Positions 1 to 18,133 of a DNA stretch of 32,339 bases are shown piece by piece. The DNA is from an uncultured Erysipelotrichaceae bacterium. GTDB taxonomy: Bacteria; Bacillota_I; Bacilli_A; RFN20; CAG-826. The position numbers and the translations under genes were made by a program. Location: the NCBI GenBank assembly GCA_902794835.1, contig CADBIO010000009.1, forward strand, positions 1 to 32,339. The letters are read 5' to 3'. How positions within the stretch are numbered: the stretch's first letter is position 1; each line of letters opens with the position of its first letter. The notes under the pieces are model-generated. The model saw nothing but the letters and a program-made list of their open reading frames with translations. It had not been told where the DNA came from and did no database searches.

Positions 1-1673
1 TCTCGGATTTAAAAGGAAAATTGCAAGAATATTTCAATGCCAAAGAAGACAATAACCTTTACCTCATCACCAGCCGTGGGGAGATGCCTTTCTATGTGAC
101 GTTAAATAATGATGTTACTCAAGCAAGACAATTTACTTTCGTTTTTCCTTTTGTTTTCTTTGCCGTTGCCATCTTAGTCATCTTGACGACCCTCTCTCAA
201 CGAGTCTTGCAAGAACGATCGCAAATTGGAACGATGAAGGCGTTAGGTCTTTCTCGGGGGCAAATCTATCTTCACTACATCGGACTGACCTCTGCCTTGG
301 TGGGAATCGGGACCTTGATTGGGGAGGTCCTTGGGCCAATTATCATCCCTCAGATTCTTGGGAAAAAATACCAGATTCTTTATTCTCTCCCACCGATGCG
401 TTATACCTTCCCTCTACTATATGGAATTTTGACTGCCGTCTCTTTTTTAGGCGTCGCCGCTTTGGTGACTTTTGCCATTTGTCGAAAAGAAGTTCGTCTC
501 AAGCCGGTCGATTCGATGCGTCCGGAGCCTCCTAAAATCAAAATGAAACACGTTCACCAGAATCATCGGGAGAAAGTCTACCTGCTTTCGATGAAAATGG
601 CATTCCGTAATATTCGCATCAGTTTAGTGAAATCTATCATGGTTATTGTCGGTGTTATGGGTTGCACGGCTTTGCTTGCCTGTGGGTTTGGGATTGAAGA
701 TACGATTAATTATGGCATTTCTCATGATTTAGGCGTTTTCTATCAGACCGACCTCACTCTTTCTTTTGCCACAGAAAGAAGCTATGAAGATTCCACCAAA
801 GGTTTATTGGCTATTGAAGGGGTGGATAAAGTGGAGCCTTTTGTTTCCACGACAAGCTTAACTTACGTGGTAAATGGACCGCAGATGAATACCACTTTAA
901 GAATTCTTCAACCGGATAGCCAGACCATGCGTTTGAATTTCAGTCATGATACGGTGGCAATTTCTCAGAAAGTGGCAAGAACCATCAACGCCAAAGAAGG
1001 GGATGAAATTGTCTTCCAATATAGCGGGAACAACTACACGTCCAAGGTAGGTGCTGTCCTTGAAGCGTTTGTTTATCATGGTGTTTTTGCTTACACGGAT
1101 GCCTCCTTTTTCTCTTCTATTTCTTCCTTTACCTATGGTGGTGCCAACGTCACCATCAAAGAAGGTTATGAACCAACAGAGATGGATCAGAAGATGGAGT
1201 CTCTCAATTACGTGCAAAATTGCAATACCGTTGCAGAAAGAGAGGCAACGATAAACGATATCATGTCAGGCGTCATGGTGATGACTAATGCCGTCAAAGT
1301 CTTTGCCATTCTTCTAGCTATCGTCGTTCTTTATAATTTGGCCTTAATGAATTTCAAAGAACGTACCAGGGATATCGCCACATTGAAGGTGTTAGGTTTC
1401 AGTCGTGTGGAAATCTCCCTTTCCTTGATGATGGAGACCCTCTTTTTGACTGCCATCGGCGTTCTTCTTGGTTTGGCTCTAGGCTACCCATTCCTTTTAT
1501 TGGTGATGGGGACCAATATCGTCGAATTGGTAGAATATCTATACACGATCCGCTTCCTTTCCTATCTTTTCTCCTTCCTTTTAACTTTTGTCGTAGCCTT
1601 TATCGTCGATTTGATCTTGGTGCAAAGAACAAGAAAGGTCAAAATGGTCGAATCTCTCAAAAGCGTGGAATAA
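1..1673 (+). CDS. ABC transporter permease, FtsX/MacB-like (5' end missing)
   Basis: The reading frame is open to the left edge of the window, so the N-terminus lies outside; the TTG at 21 is probably not the true start. The visible 556 residues hold two FtsX-type permease units. The first has helices around 140-230 nt and the typical ERSQIGTMKALGLSRGQI segment. The second, near the C-terminus, has the matching ERTRDIATLKVLGFSRVEI segment followed by two membrane helices. Between them lies a soluble extracytoplasmic region (about 700-1250 nt). FtsX/MacB-family permeases work with a separate ATPase in lipoprotein release, peptide export or signalling; which applies here cannot be told, because the ATPase gene is not in view. 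A strong terminator follows, so this is the last gene of its operon. Confidence 0.88.
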   Translation, partial: SDLKGKLQEYFNAKEDNNLYLITSRGEMPFYVTLNNDVTQARQFTFVFPFVFFAVAILVILTTLSQRVLQERSQIGTMKALGLSRGQIYLHYIGLTSALVGIGTLIGEVLGPIIIPQILGKKYQILYSLPPMRYTFPLLYGILTAVSFLGVAALVTFAICRKEVRLKPVDSMRPEPPKIKMKHVHQNHREKVYLLSMKMAFRNIRISLVKSIMVIVGVMGCTALLACGFGIEDTINYGISHDLGVFYQTDLTLSFATERSYEDSTKGLLAIEGVDKVEPFVSTTSLTYVVNGPQMNTTLRILQPDSQTMRLNFSHDTVAISQKVARTINAKEGDEIVFQYSGNNYTSKVGAVLEAFVYHGVFAYTDASFFSSISSFTYGGANVTIKEGYEPTEMDQKMESLNYVQNCNTVAEREATINDIMSGVMVMTNAVKVFAILLAIVVLYNLALMNFKERTRDIATLKVLGFSRVEISLSLMMETLFLTAIGVLLGLALGYPFLLLVMGTNIVELVEYLYTIRFLSYLFSFLLTFVVAFIVDLILVQRTRKVKMVESLKSVE

Positions 1674-1715
1674 TTGGATATTGGAAAATTATCGGCATTG
1701 CGCTCCGATAGTCTA

Positions 1716-1742
1716 AAAAGTGTCGATAACATCGACACTTTT
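1716..1742 (+). terminator. Rho-independent terminator after the FtsX-like gene
   Basis: A perfect 12-bp hairpin, AAAAGTGTCGAT / ATCGACACTTTT with loop AAC, is followed by TCTCATTTTTT. It lies 42 nt after the permease stop. The A-rich left arm would also give a U-run on the other strand, so it may act in both directions. Confidence 0.85.
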
Positions 1743-1945
1743 CTCATTTTTTGCCGATTTTGTACCACGATTTTCGGGGATTTTTGTTCGGCGCACGATT
1801 TCAAAATTTAATCTTCCATTGACGGATTAGCGGTGGTGGCTCAGGGGGTGCACTATAGAAGTTTGTTCCCTTTTCTGAAACCCAGCTTCGTAGCAGCTTT
1901 CGGAAAAAGCATTGGATGATGAAGCCATTATGCGATTAAGGGCAT
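1743..1945. other. Gene-free left edge of the accessory island
   Basis: No convincing gene is seen on either strand here. Around 1846-1885 the sequence GGGTGCACTATAGAAG followed by TTTGTTCCCTTTTCTG resembles an insertion-sequence end in character (G-rich tip, then a conserved-looking subterminal stretch). I see neither a transposase nor a matching inverted copy, so this is only a possibility. The text changes from host-like, AT-richer sequence to GC-richer island sequence across this stretch. Confidence 0.3.
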
Positions 1946-2254
1946 TTATCCTAGCGTCCCGTCGATGAACACCCAGTCGTCAGGTATGATTTTAGTTATG
2001 CGCTCACGTGCCTCCTGCAGGAGGGCGAGATACCTCGCTTTTTCGTTTTCGTCCGCGAAGCCGCGGCATTCGAACGCCTTCCCATCGTCGACGAACTGGG
2101 ATTCGTGAAGGCGCTGCAACTCGTCAAGAAGCGACTCGAGGTTTTTCTCGTCGGCCCATTCCTCGGGCATAGCCGTGTCGATGACCTGCCCCTTCTCGTC
2201 GAGAAGCCACAAAGGCCAAGCCCCATATTCAAGCGATAATTTAATTGTTTTCAT
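1946..2254 (-). CDS. Small acidic protein, candidate immunity protein
   Basis: A 102-residue acidic soluble protein (begins MKTIKLSLEYGAWPLWLLDE, ends IDGTLG). It has no signal peptide or membrane segment. I do not recognise a named family with certainty, but size, acidity and position fit an immunity protein. Its ATG overlaps the TGA stop of the upstream toxin-like fragment as ATGA, and a GGAGGG ribosome binding site lies inside the end of that fragment, so the two were made as a coupled pair. In polymorphic toxin cassettes the immunity gene directly follows the toxin C-terminus. It appears intact although its partner is truncated, as is common for orphan immunity genes. The function is inferred from context only. 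Confidence 0.6.
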   Translation of the reverse strand: MKTIKLSLEYGAWPLWLLDEKGQVIDTAMPEEWADEKNLESLLDELQRLHESQFVDDGKAFECRGFADENEKARYLALLQEARERITKIIPDDWVFIDGTLG

Positions 2255-2623
2255 TTTCCATTTCCCTCCGGATGTAAGATTTGCGCCGACGATAAAGCCG
2301 TTGTATCGACCGTCACTGCGACGTGGTAGGTCTTCCCTCCATAATTATATTCATAAATTGGCCTGCCTGTCCCTTTTCCTTGATAGCCGACGATTTCCCC
2401 GTAGGCGACCGCGTTCAGGACGAAAGTTCCGATCATGGAGGCAGGGATTCCGCCAGAAACGAATTGACTGCCGTGCTCTTTGAGGATGTGCTTGAGACCT
2501 GCATTGAGACGACCAACCTCGACGTTTATCTGCCAAACCCAAAATTCGCGATGGCGGGGAACCTTTCCGTTCGTCTACACGACCGCCCGGACAACTATGC
2601 GTTTTTGTTTGTACTTAAAAGCG
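2251..2623 (-). pseudogene. Truncated toxin C-terminal domain, barnase/phage-nuclease-like
   Basis: On the minus strand an open frame of about 107 codons (TNGKVPRHREFWVW...GLKHILKEHG...YHVAVTVDTT) runs from an in-frame TAG at 2577-2575 down to the TGA at 2253-2251, with no credible start before an internal ATG at 2436. Upstream of the TAG the same frame continues with KQKRIVVRAVV, which reads as the same protein, so one nonsense change (Tyr to stop would fit) breaks it. The frame loses sense near 2625, where the WYL promoter begins. The KHILKEHG and GRPIYEYNYGGKTYHVAVTV segments resemble C-terminal nuclease domains of the barnase/EndoU/ColicinE5-like group found in phage proteins and polymorphic toxins. 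The family call is from memory and needs a profile search. The delivery part is absent, so this is a relic. Confidence 0.6.
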
Positions 2624-2663
2624 TGCACGCCTATTGATAATCTATTATGCGTAGAGATAAAAT
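2621..2663 (+). promoter_or_regulatory. Promoter of the WYL regulator with an upstream palindrome
   Basis: TTGATA (2634-2639) and TAAAAT (2658-2663) form a good sigma-A type promoter with an 18-nt spacer. The perfect palindrome GCGTGCACGC (2621-2630) ends four bases before the -35 box and could be an operator, for example for autoregulation by the WYL protein. Operator use is an inference. Confidence 0.6.
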
Positions 2664-2692
2664 TCTTACTAACAAAAAGGCGGAAAAACCTA

Positions 2693-3721
2693 ATGTTTGA
2701 AAACAAGAAGTCGTCCATCTTACTCATCCTCAGGACTTTGGAGGAATACTCCGATGAGGACCATTTCCTAACACAGCAGGACATCATCGATAAGGTGGAG
2801 GCCAACTATGGGATCACTCTGGAACGCAAAAGCGTATCGTATTCCATCTCCTTACTGCAGGAACTCGATTATGATATCGAGAAAGGTCCGCGTGGCGGAT
2901 ATGCCTTATTCTCTAGATTATTCGATCCCTCTGAGGTCCGTTTTCTAACCGACGCTCTATTCTCCTCTAGAGCCCTACCAGGAAAGCAGGCCGCGGACCT
3001 CTCGAAGAAGGCCCAATCGGTTCTAAGCAAGCACCAGAGGTCTTCCTATTCTTATATTTATAAATCACCTCAACTGAACAGGACCGAGTCCAAGGAGGTG
3101 TTCTTCGCGATCGACACGACGCATGAGGGCATCAAGCGGGGGAAGAGGATTTCCTTCCAATACAAAACATATGACGAGCATGGGGAGGTAACCCTTCGCA
3201 ACGATGGATACCGATACATCGTCTCGCCGTATTACCTTGTGAACAGCAATGGCTTCTACTACCTTATCTGCAATTACCGCGAGAAATACCGGCCGATACA
3301 AGTGTTTCGCGTAGATCTGATGACGAACCTTCGAATAGAGGAGGAGTGGCCGATAAAACCCCTATCGACAATTAAAGGCGGAGAGGAGTTTGATATCGCC
3401 GACTACATCAACGACCACGTCTACATGCTTGGCGGGGATGTGGTGGATGCGACCATTCGCGTCGACCAGGCATATGGAATCCAATACCTCAGAGATTGGT
3501 TCGGAAAGAAGGCCAGGATTTACGAAAAAGACGGTCTCTTGTTTGCAAAGATCAGATGTAACGAAGATTCGTTGTTCTTTTGGATACTTCAATATGGCGA
3601 TGAGTTCACGTTGGTTGAGCCGATAAGTTTGATTGAACGCCTGAAACAACATTTGCAAAGACAAAACAAGAAGTACGAGCGAAAACGATATGGAGACAAT
3701 TCAGGGAAAAGGAGGCGGTAA
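2693..3721 (+). CDS. WYL-domain transcriptional regulator
   Basis: A 342-residue protein. Residues 1-65 form an N-terminal winged-helix DNA-binding region (ILLILRTLEEYSDEDHFLTQ, then the helix with SVSYSISLLQELDYDI and GPRGGYAL). Residues about 145-225 form a WYL domain (YIVSPYYLVNSNGFYYLICNY, then VFRVDLMTNL). A WCX-type C-terminal domain with WFGKKARIYEKDGLL follows. The ATG at 2693 is preferred over earlier in-frame starts, which run through unrelated relic sequence; it has a modest AAGGCGG site and a promoter just upstream. WYL proteins bind nucleic-acid or nucleotide ligands and often control defence loci and DNA-damage responses. The next gene starts one base after this stop, so the two are co-transcribed. 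Confidence 0.88.
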   Translation: MFENKKSSILLILRTLEEYSDEDHFLTQQDIIDKVEANYGITLERKSVSYSISLLQELDYDIEKGPRGGYALFSRLFDPSEVRFLTDALFSSRALPGKQAADLSKKAQSVLSKHQRSSYSYIYKSPQLNRTESKEVFFAIDTTHEGIKRGKRISFQYKTYDEHGEVTLRNDGYRYIVSPYYLVNSNGFYYLICNYREKYRPIQVFRVDLMTNLRIEEEWPIKPLSTIKGGEEFDIADYINDHVYMLGGDVVDATIRVDQAYGIQYLRDWFGKKARIYEKDGLLFAKIRCNEDSLFFWILQYGDEFTLVEPISLIERLKQHLQRQNKKYERKRYGDNSGKRRR

Positions 3722-3722
3722 C

Positions 3723-4484
3723 ATGAGAAAAACTAAATTGTTGGACAACCTATTCTCGGAATGGGAAAAAGCACATCAAGACGAGTCGGAAGAGTCATGC
3801 AAGAAAACCATTAATGGGGATAGAATCAAAAAGCATTTCTTTGAGAGAGATGGCATCATAAGCGAAAATGACTTTGAAAAAGAAAAGACGAAGATTCTTT
3901 TTGTGATGGCAGAAGCGAATATTGATAAATATACGGAAGAGGGGTCGAACGGTAAAATAGATTATCGCGAAATCTATAAAAACTACTATAACGATCAAAC
4001 AGGCAAGGATCGGTGGAAGGGCAAAATGAAAGAAAGGCTATCTGCCCTATATGGCTACATGACTTCTCAGACTCACGTCACGCCTCATTTATTGGCTAAC
4101 AAATACGCGGTCATGGACTTAAACAAAAGGGGCGGAAAAGCAAAAATCGGTCGTGGTGCCCACATTGTCGAGTATGTTAGAGTGTATCGCTCTTTCTTAA
4201 GAAAGGAGCTTGAGATTATCAATCCAGATATCGTGGTTTGGGTTGGCACAAACATATATCGGTTAGGCATCCCGAAACTACTTGGTGCTAAAGAAGATAG
4301 AGATAATTTGTGTTTCGTAATCGAAGGGAGGTCCGTTCCAATCATCAGTATATGGCAGACTTCGTATTACCAGGCCCGCATCGAGCCTCTTTCTCCCGAA
4401 GAATGTGGAACCGAGAACAGGATTATCCGGAAGCTTTGCGCAAAGGCAAAAATAGAGATGGACAAATTAATCAGAAACAGCTAG
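3723..4484 (+). CDS. Uracil-DNA-glycosylase-fold-like protein of unknown function
   Basis: A 253-residue soluble protein. The start at ATG 3723 is chosen for its AGGAGG site inside the end of the WYL gene and 1-nt spacing to it. Segments in order are KILFVMAEANI (residues 57-67), YAVMDLNKRGG (128-138), INPDIVVWVG (166-175) and VPIISIWQTSYYQA (205-218). This pattern (strand ending in an acidic loop, a D/N-L strand, a PDIVVxxG strand, a final strand with an active-site-like loop) resembles the uracil-DNA glycosylase superfamily. The canonical catalytic motifs are not clearly present, so activity on uracil is not claimed. Its coupling to a WYL regulator suggests a nucleic-acid-related or defence role. 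A divergent hypothetical protein is the conservative alternative. Confidence 0.6.
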   Translation: MRKTKLLDNLFSEWEKAHQDESEESCKKTINGDRIKKHFFERDGIISENDFEKEKTKILFVMAEANIDKYTEEGSNGKIDYREIYKNYYNDQTGKDRWKGKMKERLSALYGYMTSQTHVTPHLLANKYAVMDLNKRGGKAKIGRGAHIVEYVRVYRSFLRKELEIINPDIVVWVGTNIYRLGIPKLLGAKEDRDNLCFVIEGRSVPIISIWQTSYYQARIEPLSPEECGTENRIIRKLCAKAKIEMDKLIRNS

Positions 4485-4551
4485 ACCAAAGCCATGTCCT
4501 CTTTTCGCCCCATTTCTTTAGGTATTCTTCCTTTAGAAAGGAGGTAAGTGA

Positions 4552-4794
4552 ATGGCAAGGATGACAAAGGCCGATTTCAAATTGCTCAAAGGGCAGACGG
4601 TGGCCTTCGCCGTGGTTACCTATAACGAGGACGCTAGGATCCGTATGGTGAACTATGGCGAAGACGCAAGATTTCAGAAGGTCCAATACGGAAACTCGAC
4701 GAACACCATCAAGGTCAAGATCGTGAACTACGGCGAAGACGTCAAACTCAAGGAAGTGGCTTACGGTGGTGACTTCAAAGTAATCACGAAATAA
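4552..4794 (+). CDS. 80-aa strand-repeat protein, 7(1) septoil-knot/DUF6150-like
   Basis: A short protein made almost only of repeated strand units: TYNEDARIRMVN, YGEDARFQKVQ, VNYGEDVKLKEV, YGGDFKVITK. The V-x-Y-x-E-D-A/V register recurs about every 12 residues. This layout is what I remember of the small DUF6150 family, later described as predicted 7(1) septoil-knot proteins; the match is by pattern only. ATG 4552 follows a strong AAAGGAGG site; ATG 4561 is a second possibility. It lies 67 nt after the glycosylase-like gene on the same strand and is followed by a terminator, so it ends that transcript. No function is known to me. Confidence 0.65.
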   Translation: MARMTKADFKLLKGQTVAFAVVTYNEDARIRMVNYGEDARFQKVQYGNSTNTIKVKIVNYGEDVKLKEVAYGGDFKVITK

Positions 4795-4804
4795 GCAAAC
4801 TTGG

Positions 4805-4834
4805 AGATGCTCGAAAAAACGGGCATCTTTTTCT
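4805..4834 (+). terminator. Rho-independent terminator after the septoil-knot-like gene
   Basis: AGATGC / GCATCT with an inner CG/CG pair around an A6 loop, followed by TTTTTCTTT. It splits the island's plus-strand genes into two transcription units. Confidence 0.8.
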
Positions 4835-4896
4835 TTGTATGTACCAAAAAACGTGCATTAAAGCTCCTACCATTTAGGCATAAGGAGGCTGATAGT

Positions 4897-6219
4897 ATGG
4901 ATAATGAAATCAGCAAATTTCTCCCAAATGTCTATGGTTTGTGGAGAATCAAGGAAGAACTCAAGGTGATCCTTGGGTGGTATAAGGACCCGGAATCGAT
5001 GGGCAAGCGGAAACACCTGCTGCCTAAGGGAATACTCTTCTATGGTGACCCCGGATGTGGCAAGACGATGCTTATGCGGGAATATTCCAAGGAATTCGCC
5101 TGTCCAGTGTTCTTAATTGAAGGCAACGCGGAAGATGTGCAGACGGAGATCATCGAGACCTACGAGAAGGCATCCAAGGAACCGCTCTCCATCGTCATTA
5201 TCGACGAATTGGACCGCCTGATTGACAAAGACGGCAAACTCATCCGTATCTTACAAGCCAAACTCGATGGCTTTAAGCAGAATGTCGGGACGCTCACTTT
5301 GGCGACCGCGAACGAAAAAGGCAAAATCCCGGAGCCCTTAAAACGCGAAGGGAGATTCGACAGGCGGTTTGACATCTATCTTCAAGGGAAAGACGAAGTC
5401 CGTGAGGCCGTGGAAGGCTTTTTGGCGTCCGCCGGGCTTTCCATCGACGAGGAGGGGCTCGAAGAGTTGGTCGATGATTTTAGATTCGATACCGCTAGCC
5501 ACATCAGGGCGGCGATCAATTCTGCCGCGCTCCGCTATGGGGACGATTGTACCGCCGAACAGATCCTGGACGTGTCGCATTTCATCGCCTGGGGTAGACT
5601 TCCCCGCAAAGAGGAGGTAGAGATTGACCGCCGTGTTGCCATACACGAAGCGGGCCATGCGGCCTATCTTCATTTCTTCTCAAAGACCATGGACTGTGGA
5701 CGCATATATTTTTCTGCCTCCGGGGGTTTCACGACATTGATGCCCCTTAAGAAAACATCGAGCATTCTCTCCGTCACCGAGAACATCCGCTGTTCGCTGG
5801 CCGGGCTTGTCGCTGAGGAGATTTGCTTCGGGTACCATGGATATGGATCGCATACGGATTTGAATCAAGCCCACAGCCTAGCTTACCACCTCGTGAATAC
5901 GCAGGCCCTTAATGGCGTAGAGAATCACTGCAACTCCTACGAGGAACTCGAGCCATCCAAGAATATGTCGCAAGCGAAAATGAGGGGGATGGAAAGGGCG
6001 TCACGCCGTTTTGTGGCGAAACAATATAGAATCGTGGAGAAAGCGATGAAGGAGAAAAGGAGACAAATCGAAGCGTTGTCGGATTTCCTGATGGAGCACG
6101 GGAAGGCTTCCAAAAAAGAGATTCAGGCGATATTATCGGCGAATTCATGGTGCTGTAAGAAAAAGGGCGAAGAGAGGGAATGGCATGGAACGCTTGGCAA
6201 AAGAAGCGCAATGGTCTGA
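4897..6219 (+). CDS. Soluble AAA+ ATPase fused to an M41 (FtsH-type) zinc protease
   Basis: A 440-residue protein. Start ATG 4897 is preceded by TAAGGAGG at 8-nt spacing; the earlier in-frame ATG at 4801 overlaps the terminator and is rejected. The AAA+ module has Walker A GDPGCGKT (50-57), Walker B IVIIDELD (99-106) and a second region of homology REGRFDRRFD (150-159) with arginine fingers. The M41 module has the zinc motif HEAGH (250-254) and a third-ligand candidate in GSHTDLNQA (D321). FtsH is normally about 600-650 residues with two N-terminal membrane helices; here there are none, so the enzyme should be cytosolic. The usual aromatic-hydrophobic-Gly pore loop is not obvious (VFLIEGN is at that place). 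The C-terminus is rich in Lys/Arg/Glu. The role is probably ATP-driven degradation of a partner encoded by the island or by a phage; the substrate is unknown. Confidence 0.85.
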   Translation: MDNEISKFLPNVYGLWRIKEELKVILGWYKDPESMGKRKHLLPKGILFYGDPGCGKTMLMREYSKEFACPVFLIEGNAEDVQTEIIETYEKASKEPLSIVIIDELDRLIDKDGKLIRILQAKLDGFKQNVGTLTLATANEKGKIPEPLKREGRFDRRFDIYLQGKDEVREAVEGFLASAGLSIDEEGLEELVDDFRFDTASHIRAAINSAALRYGDDCTAEQILDVSHFIAWGRLPRKEEVEIDRRVAIHEAGHAAYLHFFSKTMDCGRIYFSASGGFTTLMPLKKTSSILSVTENIRCSLAGLVAEEICFGYHGYGSHTDLNQAHSLAYHLVNTQALNGVENHCNSYEELEPSKNMSQAKMRGMERASRRFVAKQYRIVEKAMKEKRRQIEALSDFLMEHGKASKKEIQAILSANSWCCKKKGEEREWHGTLGKRSAMV

Positions 6220-12482: not shown

Positions 12483-14138
12483 ATGCCAAAGATTGAATTA
12501 ATTAATGTTACGAAACGTTGGGGTGGCTTCTATGGCGCTGATCACCTCAATATGGTGATTGAAGACAATGGCTTTGTCACCCTTCTTGGCCCATCTGGCT
12601 GTGGTAAAACCACAACCCTCCGTATGATTGCCGGTTTGGAGACACCAACCGAAGGGAAAATTCTCTTTGATGGCAAGCCAATCTTTGATTCGGAAGAAGG
12701 AATCAACCTTCCTGCTTCCAAGCGTCACGTTGGATTCTTGTTCCAGAACTACGCTCTCTGGCCGCATATGACGGTTTATAAAAACATCACCTTCGGTTTG
12801 CAAGAATTAAAACAAGAACTTCCGGTCATTTCCAGCGATTGGAAGAAATATCACCGCCTTGCGGAAGTGGTTACCAATATCCGCGATATCAAGAAGTTCA
12901 TTGCCTATTCGTTAGACAAAAATCAAAAAGTCGTGGAAGAGAAAGCTTTGCTCTTCTTGATTGACGGTTTCGAGATTTCTATGAGCGCGGCCAAAGAAAT
13001 CTTCAAGCTTGGCTTTGATCAGAAGTCGGACGCAGAATGCGAGGCAATCGCGGAGCAAAAGAAAGCCGAATTCACCGTCAAAGCGGATCAAGCGAAAGCC
13101 AACGTCGAAAAGAAAGGCTATGAGCTTAACGAAAATGGTGAATACGTCAAAGATGGCGAAGTCGTAAGAAAAGAACGCAAACTTGACAAAGAAGAAATCG
13201 ATCTTCGTGTCCGTCGCGTCTCCCGCATCGTCCACATCGGCGAATTCATGGGCCGTTACCCAGCCGAACTCTCCGGTGGTCAGCAACAGCGTGTCGCTAT
13301 CGCCCGTACTTTGGCACCAGAGCCAAAAGTAATCTTCATGGATGAGCCTCTTTCCAACCTCGATGCGAAACTCCGTTTGGAGATGCGTTCTGAGTTAAAG
13401 AGACTTCATAAAGACACCGGCTCCACCTTCGTCTACGTCACCCACGACCAACAAGAAGCGATGACCTTGGCGACCAAGATCTGCTTGATCAATAACGGCG
13501 TCATTCAGCAATATGAGGCTCCATTGGATGTTTATAAGAAGCCAAATAACCTCTTTGTTGCCGACTTCATCGGCTCCCCAAGCATCAACTTCGTGGAAGG
13601 CTTAGCCTCTCAAAAGGGCAAGAATATCGAGCTTGAAGTCTTCGATGGCTGCAAGGCCGAATTCATCCCTAATGAGCCGCTCAACTTGGAAGAGTATTGC
13701 AAACAGCGCGATGCCAGAATGGAAGAAGCCGCTGCCTTAAAAGCGGAAGAACTCTCCCAGAAAGGCGCCGTGGAAAAAGAAAACGCCGACCGTGCCTTCA
13801 ACTACGCCATCGCCAAAGTTACTGGCAATGTGATGGCAGAAGAAGAGCATGACGTCCCTGAGAATACCTACCTTCTCGGCATCCGTCCTGAATTCATCAA
13901 GATCGATACGAAAGAAGGGGATATCGACGCGGAAATCTATTCTGCTCTTCCTACCGGCATGGAAACGACCGTCAAGCTCCGCATCGGTGATTATATCCTC
14001 ACGGGTGTGATCTTCGGTGGCGTTGACTACGTAATGGGAGAAAAGGTCAAGTTGTCTTTCGGAAGCACGGGAATCCTTCTCTTTGATCGCAAGAGTGGGG
14101 AACTTGTCTCCGCAGGTCAACTGAAACTCAAAAAGTAA
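12483..14138 (+). CDS. ABC importer ATPase with a long insert
   Basis: A 551-residue energising subunit, against about 360-370 in MalK/UgpC/PotA relatives. Walker A is GPSGCGKT (36-43), the Q-loop Gln is in FLFQNYALWPHMTVY (Q88), the signature LSGGQ is at 263-267, Walker B is VIFMDEP (283-289), and the H-loop is VYVTHD (about 318-323). The Q-loop to signature distance is about 175 residues instead of about 50: roughly 110-240 is an extra Lys/Glu-rich helical insert in the helical subdomain. A second acidic/Ala-rich insert (about 410-445, with REDARMEEAAALKAEELSQ-like sequence) interrupts the C-terminal TOBE/MOP regulatory region, which resumes with YLLGIRPEF. A terminator follows directly, so this ends the operon. 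Confidence 0.92.
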   Translation: MPKIELINVTKRWGGFYGADHLNMVIEDNGFVTLLGPSGCGKTTTLRMIAGLETPTEGKILFDGKPIFDSEEGINLPASKRHVGFLFQNYALWPHMTVYKNITFGLQELKQELPVISSDWKKYHRLAEVVTNIRDIKKFIAYSLDKNQKVVEEKALLFLIDGFEISMSAAKEIFKLGFDQKSDAECEAIAEQKKAEFTVKADQAKANVEKKGYELNENGEYVKDGEVVRKERKLDKEEIDLRVRRVSRIVHIGEFMGRYPAELSGGQQQRVAIARTLAPEPKVIFMDEPLSNLDAKLRLEMRSELKRLHKDTGSTFVYVTHDQQEAMTLATKICLINNGVIQQYEAPLDVYKKPNNLFVADFIGSPSINFVEGLASQKGKNIELEVFDGCKAEFIPNEPLNLEEYCKQRDARMEEAAALKAEELSQKGAVEKENADRAFNYAIAKVTGNVMAEEEHDVPENTYLLGIRPEFIKIDTKEGDIDAEIYSALPTGMETTVKLRIGDYILTGVIFGGVDYVMGEKVKLSFGSTGILLFDRKSGELVSAGQLKLKK

Positions 14139-15039: not shown

Positions 15040-15918
15040 TTAAAGGGATTGAAGGATATGTTCCGCGTAAGCTTTAGCCACATTTACGCCTGTCGTTTTT
15101 TCGCTTCCCGCCATAAAGGCGTTAGAATTGACTTCACACAAGACAGGCTCGCCATCTTTGCCGGTCAATAAGTCGACACCACAATAATCGAGATGAAGAA
15201 GAAGGGCAATCTTCTCAGCGAATTTTTGATAAGATTCTGGAATTTCAACCTTCTCTCCGATTCCGCCTTGTGCGATATTGCTCCGAAAATCCCCATTTAG
15301 GTTATGCCTCCGATAACCCGTGACGAATTTCCCTCCAACTAAGATTAAGCGATAATCGAAACCATAACTGGATTCGATGAATTCTTGATAGAGGTGGGCC
15401 TCGTTTTGAAATTTTTTCTCAAACGAAATCAATTCCGATTCGTTTTGAATGAGATAAACCCCATTTCCAAGAGATCCATAATTCTCTTTTGCCACAAAAG
15501 GGAAGGACAATTCTTTTTCCACGTTCTTTAGGAAAGTAGGATCGAATTGGTGGGAATAATTCAAAGGGGCCGTGACGCTTTTTGGCATACGGATACCATG
15601 ATTTGCTAAGAAAAGATAGGTTAACATCTTATCGTCACAAAGACGGATGGATTCAGCGGAATTAAATAATCTCAACCCCCGTTTTTCTAAAAGATAGGAG
15701 ATATATTTGTCCTTATCGAGATAAAGACAGAAAGCATAAGCGGATAAATCCAAACCGCAAAAAGAACCGTTTTGATCCAAATAAGAAAGAATCTCTGAAT
15801 TAGTCTTCCATTCAAGAACAACGCCTAATTTGGCGAATTCTTCCTTCATTCTTTCATAAGTGTATTTTGGGCCTTCTTGTTGAACGTAGGCGTTGAAAAG
15901 ACAAAGCGCTTTTTTCAT
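15040..15918 (-). CDS. RimK-like ATP-grasp ligase
   Basis: A 292-residue protein of the RimK/ATP-grasp group, which joins an amino acid (often glutamate) to a peptide or small molecule through an acyl phosphate. Visible motifs are FPFVAKENYGSLGNGV (nucleotide-binding loop), YQEFIESSYGFDYRLILVGG (family hallmark), GYRRHNLNGDFRSNIAQGG (RimK-like substrate loop) and CGVDLLTG...VLCEVNSNAF (metal-binding Glu and Asn). The N-terminal third is a small-domain region with low similarity. The substrate is unknown; there is no partner gene such as rpsF nearby. ATG 15918 has no Shine-Dalgarno; TAGACT lies 8 nt upstream on the minus strand, which suggests a very short leader. It is divergent from nadE across a 76-bp control region. 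Confidence 0.85.
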   Translation of the reverse strand: MKKALCLFNAYVQQEGPKYTYERMKEEFAKLGVVLEWKTNSEILSYLDQNGSFCGLDLSAYAFCLYLDKDKYISYLLEKRGLRLFNSAESIRLCDDKMLTYLFLANHGIRMPKSVTAPLNYSHQFDPTFLKNVEKELSFPFVAKENYGSLGNGVYLIQNESELISFEKKFQNEAHLYQEFIESSYGFDYRLILVGGKFVTGYRRHNLNGDFRSNIAQGGIGEKVEIPESYQKFAEKIALLLHLDYCGVDLLTGKDGEPVLCEVNSNAFMAGSEKTTGVNVAKAYAEHILQSL

Positions 15919-15940: not shown

Positions 15941-15959
15941 CTTTTATTTTGAATAAAAG
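15941..15959. promoter_or_regulatory. Perfect inverted repeat between the RimK-like gene and nadE
   Basis: CTTTTATT-TTG-AATAAAAG is an 8-bp perfect dyad. It covers the -35 area of the minus-strand promoter (-10 TAGACT at 15932-15927) and lies just upstream of the nadE promoter. It is a candidate operator, perhaps for the Phd/YefM-like domain of the nadE product; that link is an inference. Confidence 0.55.
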
Positions 15960-15982
15960 TATTTGCAAAGACACAATTATGG

Positions 15983-15988
15983 TAAAAT
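15983..15988 (+). promoter_or_regulatory. -10 element of a leaderless nadE promoter
   Basis: TAAAAT ends 6 nt before the ATG, so transcription should begin at or next to the start codon. No Shine-Dalgarno is present. The -35 is weak (TATTTG at 15960 with a 17-nt spacer). Confidence 0.55.
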
Positions 15989-15994
15989 TATGAC

Positions 15995-18133
15995 ATGAAC
16001 AAGAAAATACAACCAATCACTGCCTTACGAGACACCACAAAATTGGAGAAAGACCTCCAGGAAAACGACGGTTTGATCCATATCACAAAGAATGGATATT
16101 CCTCCTTTGTCATCCTTTCGCCAGAACGTTACGAGGCCTTGATCCACAATAGTGGAAAACTTTATTCTGAAGAACCGCGCTTTCTCAAAGAAAAGTTCCA
16201 TCTTTCAGAAACCCAACAATCCGACCCTTTAGGTTTTGTTCGAGTACGCGCTGCCACAATTCCTGTGGAAGTAGGGGGCGTGAGACACAACGCTCAAGAA
16301 ATCATAAAGAAAGTAGAAGAGGCCGAACGCGATGAAGTAGCGATTCTTGTTTTGAACGAATTGTGTCTTTCCGGCTATACGTGTAATGATATTTTCCATT
16401 TTCAGACCTTATTGGACGATTGCGAATCTTCTTTATTGGAGATCGTAGAAAAGACAAAGGAACGTACCCCTCTTTTTGCCATAGGCATCCCATTACGCAA
16501 AGGAAACGAACTCTACAATTGTGCCGTTTTGATCCATCAAGGAAAGATCCTTGGCGTCGTGCCAAAAACTTTCATCCCGAATTATTCCGAATTCTATGAA
16601 GCTAGATGGTTCACCCCAGCTCCCAAAGAGAACTCCGAGATCCTGATTGGCACTAAAACATACCCATTTGGCCGCAACCTCATTTTCATCGATGAGAATT
16701 TTGCCAAACTGAAAATCGGCGTCGAAATCTGTGAAGATCTTTGGACGCCCGACACCCCATCAACAAATCTCGCCTTAAATGGAGCCAATGTGATTTTGAA
16801 TCTTTCTGGCTCTAATGAAACGGTTGGCAAAGCAGAATATCGCAAAAACCTCGTCAGCATGACTTCTGCTAGACTACGTTGCGCTTATGTCTATGCTGAT
16901 GCCGGCGATGGCGAATCGACGACCGACCTGGTTTTTCCTTCTCACAATTTGATTGGTGAAGATGGGACGATTCTAGCCGAAACTGAGCTTTTTAAGATGC
17001 AAGATGCGACTGCGGATATTGATTTAGAACGCTTGCTTTCCGGCCGCATGAAGACAAACACCTTCGAACATCACGAAGACTCTTCTTTCCAATGGATCCC
17101 TTTCTCCTTGCCTCTTTCTGCTCCGAAGAAAATCTTGCGACATTATTCCCGCAATCCCTTTATTCCTGAATCACGCACGATCGATTTAAAACGTGTCCAA
17201 ACCATTTTGGATATTCAAGCCATGGGTTTAGTCAAACGGTTGAAAACAGTGCATCAGGAAAAGGCCATCATTGGCTTAAGCGGTGGTTTAGATTCCACTT
17301 TGGCTTTGCTGGTTACCGTTGAGGCTTTCAAAAAAGCTGGGTATGACAGAAAAGGGATATTGGCCCTGACCTTGCCTGCCTTTGGCACTTCCCAAAGAAC
17401 GCACAAAAACGCCAAACTTTTGGCCGAAGAGCTCGGCGTCTCTTTTGATGAGATCAATATCAAAGAATCGCTTAACGTTCACTTTAAGGACATTTCTCAT
17501 GACCCGAACGATCATAATGTGGCTTATGAAAACGCCCAAGCAAGAGAACGCACTCAAGTCTTGATGGATATAGCCAATGATCGTGGTTACTTGATGGTCG
17601 GAACCGGAGACCTTTCTGAGCTTTGTTTAGGCTGGTGCACCTATAATGGCGACCATATGTCGATGTACGGGGTCAATGCTTCGATTCCCAAAACTCTGGT
17701 CCGTTATCTTTGCCAAGGCTATGCTTTGCTTCACCCCGAGGCCAAACCCGCACTAGAAGACATCATCGAAACACCAATCAGCCCTGAGCTTTTGCCGACA
17801 GACAAAGAAGGGAATATCGCCCAGATGACAGAAGATAAAGTCGGCCCATATGAGCTCAACGATTTTTTCATCTATCATTTCTTGCGTTTCGGATATCGTC
17901 CTAAAAAATTATTCCGTATCGCCCAAGAGGCCTATCGCGGTGTCTATGATGATGCCTTTTTGAAAAAATGGCTTCGCGCTTTCTTCAAACGCTTTTTCCA
18001 AAATCAATTCAAACGCTCTTGCTTGCCCGATGGAGCAAAAGTCGGGTCCGTGGCCATTTCCCCGCGTGGCGATTTGAGAATGCCATCGGATGCGGCAGTG
18101 GATGATTATCTCGTTGAGATCGATCGCCTTTGA
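15995..18133 (+). CDS. nadE: Glutamine-dependent NAD+ synthetase with an N-terminal Phd/YefM-like domain
   Basis: The enzyme converts nicotinate adenine dinucleotide to NAD+, using ammonia from glutamine. It has 712 residues. The nitrilase-type glutaminase domain starts near residue 80 (LGFVRVRAATIPV) with Glu122 (NELCLSGYT), Lys191 (GVVPKTFIP) and Cys246 (VEICEDLW) as the catalytic triad. The synthetase domain has the PP-loop SGGLDST at 429-435 and later LMVGTGDLSELCLGWCTYNGD. In front is an extra 50-residue unit, PITALRDTTKLEKDLQEN..LIHITKNGYSSFVILSPERYEAL, which reads as a Phd/YefM antitoxin DNA-binding domain. A linker of about 25 residues joins it in the same frame; no internal ATG precedes the glutaminase domain, so this is one protein. 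No toxin gene is next to it. It may autoregulate through the dyad at 15941. Confidence 0.93.
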   Translation: MNKKIQPITALRDTTKLEKDLQENDGLIHITKNGYSSFVILSPERYEALIHNSGKLYSEEPRFLKEKFHLSETQQSDPLGFVRVRAATIPVEVGGVRHNAQEIIKKVEEAERDEVAILVLNELCLSGYTCNDIFHFQTLLDDCESSLLEIVEKTKERTPLFAIGIPLRKGNELYNCAVLIHQGKILGVVPKTFIPNYSEFYEARWFTPAPKENSEILIGTKTYPFGRNLIFIDENFAKLKIGVEICEDLWTPDTPSTNLALNGANVILNLSGSNETVGKAEYRKNLVSMTSARLRCAYVYADAGDGESTTDLVFPSHNLIGEDGTILAETELFKMQDATADIDLERLLSGRMKTNTFEHHEDSSFQWIPFSLPLSAPKKILRHYSRNPFIPESRTIDLKRVQTILDIQAMGLVKRLKTVHQEKAIIGLSGGLDSTLALLVTVEAFKKAGYDRKGILALTLPAFGTSQRTHKNAKLLAEELGVSFDEINIKESLNVHFKDISHDPNDHNVAYENAQARERTQVLMDIANDRGYLMVGTGDLSELCLGWCTYNGDHMSMYGVNASIPKTLVRYLCQGYALLHPEAKPALEDIIETPISPELLPTDKEGNIAQMTEDKVGPYELNDFFIYHFLRFGYRPKKLFRIAQEAYRGVYDDAFLKKWLRAFFKRFFQNQFKRSCLPDGAKVGSVAISPRGDLRMPSDAAVDDYLVEIDRL

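Follow-up and report, generated by a model that had tools for sequence, protein, structure and literature searches.

In this study, we identified in the window, that is, the whole 32,339-nt stretch of DNA analysed here, a gene in which a predicted complete NAD+ synthetase (NadE) is joined in frame to a Phd/YefM-type antitoxin DNA-binding domain, with a predicted antitoxin-type operator directly before its start codon. The gene lies at 15995–18133 on the plus strand, begins with ATG and encodes a protein of 712 amino acids in one uninterrupted reading frame. The fusion is confirmed as real and conserved, and it is no artefact of assembly. Judged from its sequence and that of its relatives, it is probably a self-regulating NAD+ synthetase, an antitoxin DNA-binding domain and its operator having been captured together and now repressing their own nadE. 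No earlier report of a YefM-NadE fusion was found in a literature search covering open-licence papers only.

The larger part of the protein had been read in the first-pass annotation as a complete glutaminase–NAD+ synthetase in frame with the N-terminal extension, and the profile scan bears this out. The NAD(+) synthase profile NF002730 covers residues 75–711 with E=1e-243 and 810 bits, against a curated cut-off of 473. Within this region, a glutaminase (carbon-nitrogen hydrolase, CN_hydrolase, PF00795) domain at 16280–17035 (plus strand) holds the E-K-C triad, assigned from motif positions and conservation to E122, K191 and C246; it is followed by an NAD synthetase (NAD_synthase, PF02540, E=2.7e-30) domain at 17228–17791 (plus strand), whose SGGLDS ATP loop (S429–S434) is conserved. 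The profile and the catalytic motifs thus predict a complete glutamine-dependent NAD+ synthetase. A full-length AlphaFold2 model (pLDDT 88.5) found its best PDB match in NadE of M. tuberculosis (3DLA, 3SYT), which is about 40% identical to fusion residues 80–711, has the same fold and keeps the catalytic residues but, unlike the fusion, has no N-terminal Phd/YefM domain.

The assignment of residues 1–50 to a Phd/YefM domain also held, and the domain is placed here at residues 1–51 (15995–16147, plus strand; PF02604). Residues 7–51 alone matched Pfam PhdYeFM_antitox with E=1.2e-4, although at 22.2 bits the match lies below the Pfam cut-off of 29.8; the stand-alone Phd members of the lineage likewise fall just under it (26–27 bits), and 19 of 20 fused homologues matched the same profile, the best with E=1.2e-7. 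When the N-terminal domain was used in a profile search of solved structures, antitoxins only were returned, and phmmer with the domain alone gave no match among solved structures. An AlphaFold2 model of residues 1–76 has the order beta-alpha-alpha-beta-beta-alpha (strand 5–7, helices 8–12 and 14–23, strands 27–32 and 35–41, helix 43–57). The first 49 rows of a Foldseek search of this model against the PDB were all Phd/YefM-type antitoxins or their complexes, including the operator-DNA-bound 4ZM0, 4ZM2 and 6L8E, although the small size of the domain kept all E-values above 0.05. A second structure aligner gave antitoxins only in its top 23 rows, followed by a gap in Z from 4.4 to 3.4 before unrelated rows.

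Positions 1–51 are conserved among 20 aligned fused homologues, with P7, I8, L11, R12, T14, N33 and G34 invariant. Codon differences within the domain, counted over seven pairs of relatives, fall 53/30/143 on positions 1/2/3, and this third-position excess is evidence of translation and of purifying selection on the domain. In E. faecalis Phd, Arg10 and Asn14 form part of the protein–DNA interface (PMC13034048), and by this comparison R12 is a putative DNA-contact residue, which is only a hint because the E. faecalis protein is reportedly of a different fold.

The conservation ends where antitoxins have their toxin-binding tail. Roughly 25 residues after position 51 are unconserved among the 20 aligned homologues, and an alignment comparison found in the fused form no conserved toxin-binding C-terminal tail, its place being taken by a variable linker at about residues 52–79 (16148–16231, plus strand). 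Conservation of the linker is 0.18, compared with 0.36–0.40 in stand-alone antitoxins, and pLDDT in the full-length model is below 50 at residues 53–69.

When 279 genomes of the order, an uncultured one within Bacillota, were searched with a profile built from the extension, 70 proved to have the fused form, spread over 15 genera and four families; this count comprises long frames as well as frames cut off at contig ends. As the extension recurs across the order, neither chance nor misassembly can account for it, and an assembly error in the window is thereby ruled out. No fusion was present in overlapping samples of 395 genomes of the class and 392 of the phylum, where the extension profile matched only short stand-alone frames of about 40–206 codons. 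In the NadE tree, which does not settle the deep branches, the fused forms group together and the fused label needs three changes; a single gain with two losses would fit, and one origin is a possibility.

Within the window's genus, some fused genes have a diverged Phd domain (33–53 bits) with weaker yet recognisable upstream sites, and some species have an unfused NadE, part of these with a strongly diverged glutaminase half. The NadE proteins of L136, L232, L234 and L235, all from this genus, have 559–577 codons, no Phd domain and a conserved synthetase half together with a glutaminase half too diverged to match; they are possibly ammonia-dependent. Another member of the family encodes a 696-codon NadE with an N-terminal XRE-type helix-turn-helix (L135 in genome G023, minus strand; HTH_3, E=2.8e-10), and no Phd-type operator was seen at this gene. 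By its predicted domains, it shows NadE joined a second time, and independently, to a domain that binds DNA.

Paired AT-rich near-palindromes are present directly upstream of the fused genes, such as ACATAATAATGTACATAATTATGT (L113) and GCATAATTATGCTATAATAATG (L152), and the same sites recur at the most closely related stand-alone antitoxin genes, such as ACATAATTATGCTATAATAATG in L174. In the window, the predicted operator ACACAATTATGGTAAAATTATGAC occupies 15971–15994 on the plus strand, directly before the start codon of the fusion gene, and its two sites have a centre spacing of 11 bp. A 22-position motif was trained solely on the promoters of 13 stand-alone YefM-like antitoxins, of which 12 came from families outside the order and the thirteenth (L181) from family f8 within it; each scored site was the best within 60 bp. 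With this motif, 15971–15994 scored best in the window at 18.85 bits, the next independent site reaching 8.8. The mean over 67 fused genes was 11.7 bits, with about a third of them below 8 bits, compared with −3.5 for 71 unfused nadE genes from other bacteria, chiefly Bacillota, and 0.9 for five unfused nadE genes of the same family, differences whose p-values are inflated because related genomes are not independent. Two clear half-sites were found in 48 of the 67 fused genes, 11–12 bp apart in 44 of these, and in none of the 71 controls. An operator-like site is therefore present at most fused nadE genes and, as a rule, absent from unfused ones. The operators of E. coli YefM and of Axe likewise consist of two palindromes 12 bp apart that overlap the promoter (PMC7730913).

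Since an extended −10 (TGnTATAAT) forms part of the motif, the flanks were also scored alone. Forty non-redundant fused sites matched a mean of 10 of 13 flanking positions; among 356 further extended −10-like sites of these loci, the mean was 3.9 and no site had 9 or more. Here too, p-values are inflated by the relatedness of the genomes. On this result, the reading of the upstream site as a conserved promoter only was rejected, although part of its conservation must reflect promoter function since the operator includes the AT-rich promoter core. Recognisable sites persist beside the diverged domains, so that the two have not decayed in step; this counts against self-regulation, and joint decay was rejected as a line of support. 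A dyad is indeed present at 15941–15959, the binding site first proposed, but homologues do not keep it in their upstream regions; the conserved site is that at 15971–15994.

In the window's own genome, the operator pattern fitted exactly at a single place, nadE, and at one other with three mismatches; the reversed pattern gave no matches. Regulation is therefore most likely confined to its own gene. A search for a wider regulon over eight genomes gave matches in the other genomes that were mostly near the reversed-pattern control.

A consensus −35/−10 pair was not found by a promoter scan, and a predicted extended −10 (TGG-TAAAAT) lies inside the operator at 15980–15988 on the plus strand, its end 7 bp ahead of the start codon. 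The stretch 15980–15997 of the window shows no ribosome-binding site, and L116 and L031 look alike in this respect. With the −10 so close to the ATG and no such site in view, the nadE mRNA may be leaderless. On the other side of the operator, a divergent RimK-like ATP-grasp gene (15040–15918, minus strand; PF08443, E=4.3e-38) has a common intergenic region with nadE. Farther off, at 12483–14138, the window encodes an ABC transporter ATPase in which a long charged stretch, at about residues 90–265, appears to be inserted after the Walker A region and before the signature motif.

The predicted fold, the conservation of the domain and its co-occurrence with the operator lead us to infer that the fusion binds DNA and represses its own gene. 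The Phd/YefM domain would pair with its counterpart on another subunit, and the paired domains would bind the palindromes at 15971–15994. Such binding would block RNA polymerase and limit nadE expression, since the sites overlap the predicted −10 just before the start codon. Glutamine-dependent NadE of the M. tuberculosis type, as established for the M. tuberculosis enzyme, is an octamer, and the fusion could for this reason offer several Phd dimers to two adjacent sites at once. We propose that a toxin-antitoxin operon of the YefM-ParE type supplied the domain together with its operator, that the toxin-binding tail was lost, and that NadE took the place of the toxin as the oligomeric partner. 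Self-regulation of NadE through the fused domain had been suggested in the first-pass annotation; it agrees with the antitoxin-type operator predicted at fused nadE genes, and the case is now stronger because the fusion travels with that operator.

An alternative is that the Phd domain has been kept as a module for oligomerisation or stability, for instance as a protease-sensitive tag, and exerts no control of transcription, the upstream element being a promoter only. Phd domains dimerise, which fits such a role, as does the overlap of the operator with the −10 element. Against it, the positions that flank the extended −10 are conserved and recur in true antitoxin promoters, nadE genes without the domain are mostly without the site, and R12, the residue that may contact DNA, is invariant; we therefore regard this explanation as unlikely. 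A still weaker candidate, which we hold to be very improbable, is that the fusion remains an antitoxin for a toxin encoded elsewhere and couples NAD+ synthesis to toxin control, as the first-pass annotation had considered in its suggestion of a toxin controlled in trans. The nearest stand-alone relatives of the extension are indeed antitoxins, most of them followed by a ParE-type toxin gene. The own genome also has six Fic-domain matches, none adjoining nadE and most with their own inhibitory motif, one of about 200 residues lacking a motif recognised in the scan. Three Fic-domain matches (L280–L282) lie within about 4 kb on contig 15 of genome G000 (1289–5363), those at 1289 and 5040 being similar in sequence. 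Yet searches of the own genome, which is 91.6% complete, found neither a ParE nor a YoeB toxin nor a Phd domain besides that of nadE, so that a stand-alone toxin partner of either kind was rejected; the genes adjoining nadE are RimK-like and GtrA-like, in agreement with the earlier remark that no toxin gene is nearby. Together with the replacement of the tail by an unconserved linker, the lack of these partners makes an antitoxin role unlikely and speaks against control in trans. Compared with the YefM/Axe-type antitoxins (YefM-YoeB, RelBE2, RelJK and the ParE-paired YefM-like proteins of the class), the fusion has the same predicted N-terminal fold and signature and the same kind of promoter-overlapping paired-palindrome site with 11–12 bp spacing, but it is joined to a metabolic enzyme, lacks the conserved toxin-binding tail and has no toxin gene after it.

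The self-repressing NadE that we favour could in addition respond to NAD+. In such an extension, the ligand state of NadE (NaAD, ATP, NAD+ or glutamine) would switch DNA binding, as in NadR, a possibility that we put forward tentatively; that NaAD, ATP or NAD+ bound to NadE alters DNA affinity is speculative. The known precedent for a repressor domain on an NAD+ enzyme is NadR of Enterobacterales; it comprises a helix-turn-helix, an NMN adenylyltransferase and a ribosylnicotinamide kinase, and it binds DNA in response to ATP and NAD (PMC12421817). The layout of the fusion is analogous, with an N-terminal DNA-binding domain on an enzyme of the NAD+ pathway; in contrast to NadR, the DNA-binding fold is another one, the enzyme domains are CN_hydrolase and NAD_synthase, and the exact site is at its own gene only, whereas NadR acts on nadB, nadA-pnuC and pncB. 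A search for the 3H/NiaR family, which recovered the B. subtilis and T. maritima controls but no member in the 273 genomes of the order that it covered, also favours a ligand switch, while the linker, predicted to be disordered and unconserved, argues against tight allosteric coupling.

In its fullest form, which we offer with slightly more reserve than the ligand switch itself, our proposal is that a toxin-antitoxin module, domain and operator, was captured as a unit with NadE in the toxin's place, and that the resulting self-repressing, substrate- or product-responsive enzyme serves as an NAD+ thermostat in an order for which the search gave no NiaR. If true, the proposal predicts the mode of control of NAD+ synthesis in a large order of uncultured bacteria where the search gave no NiaR, the usual repressor in Bacillota. 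It would also provide a clear case of an antitoxin DNA-binding domain and its operator jointly taken over to regulate a central metabolic enzyme, and thus a route by which selfish modules may feed ordinary gene regulation.
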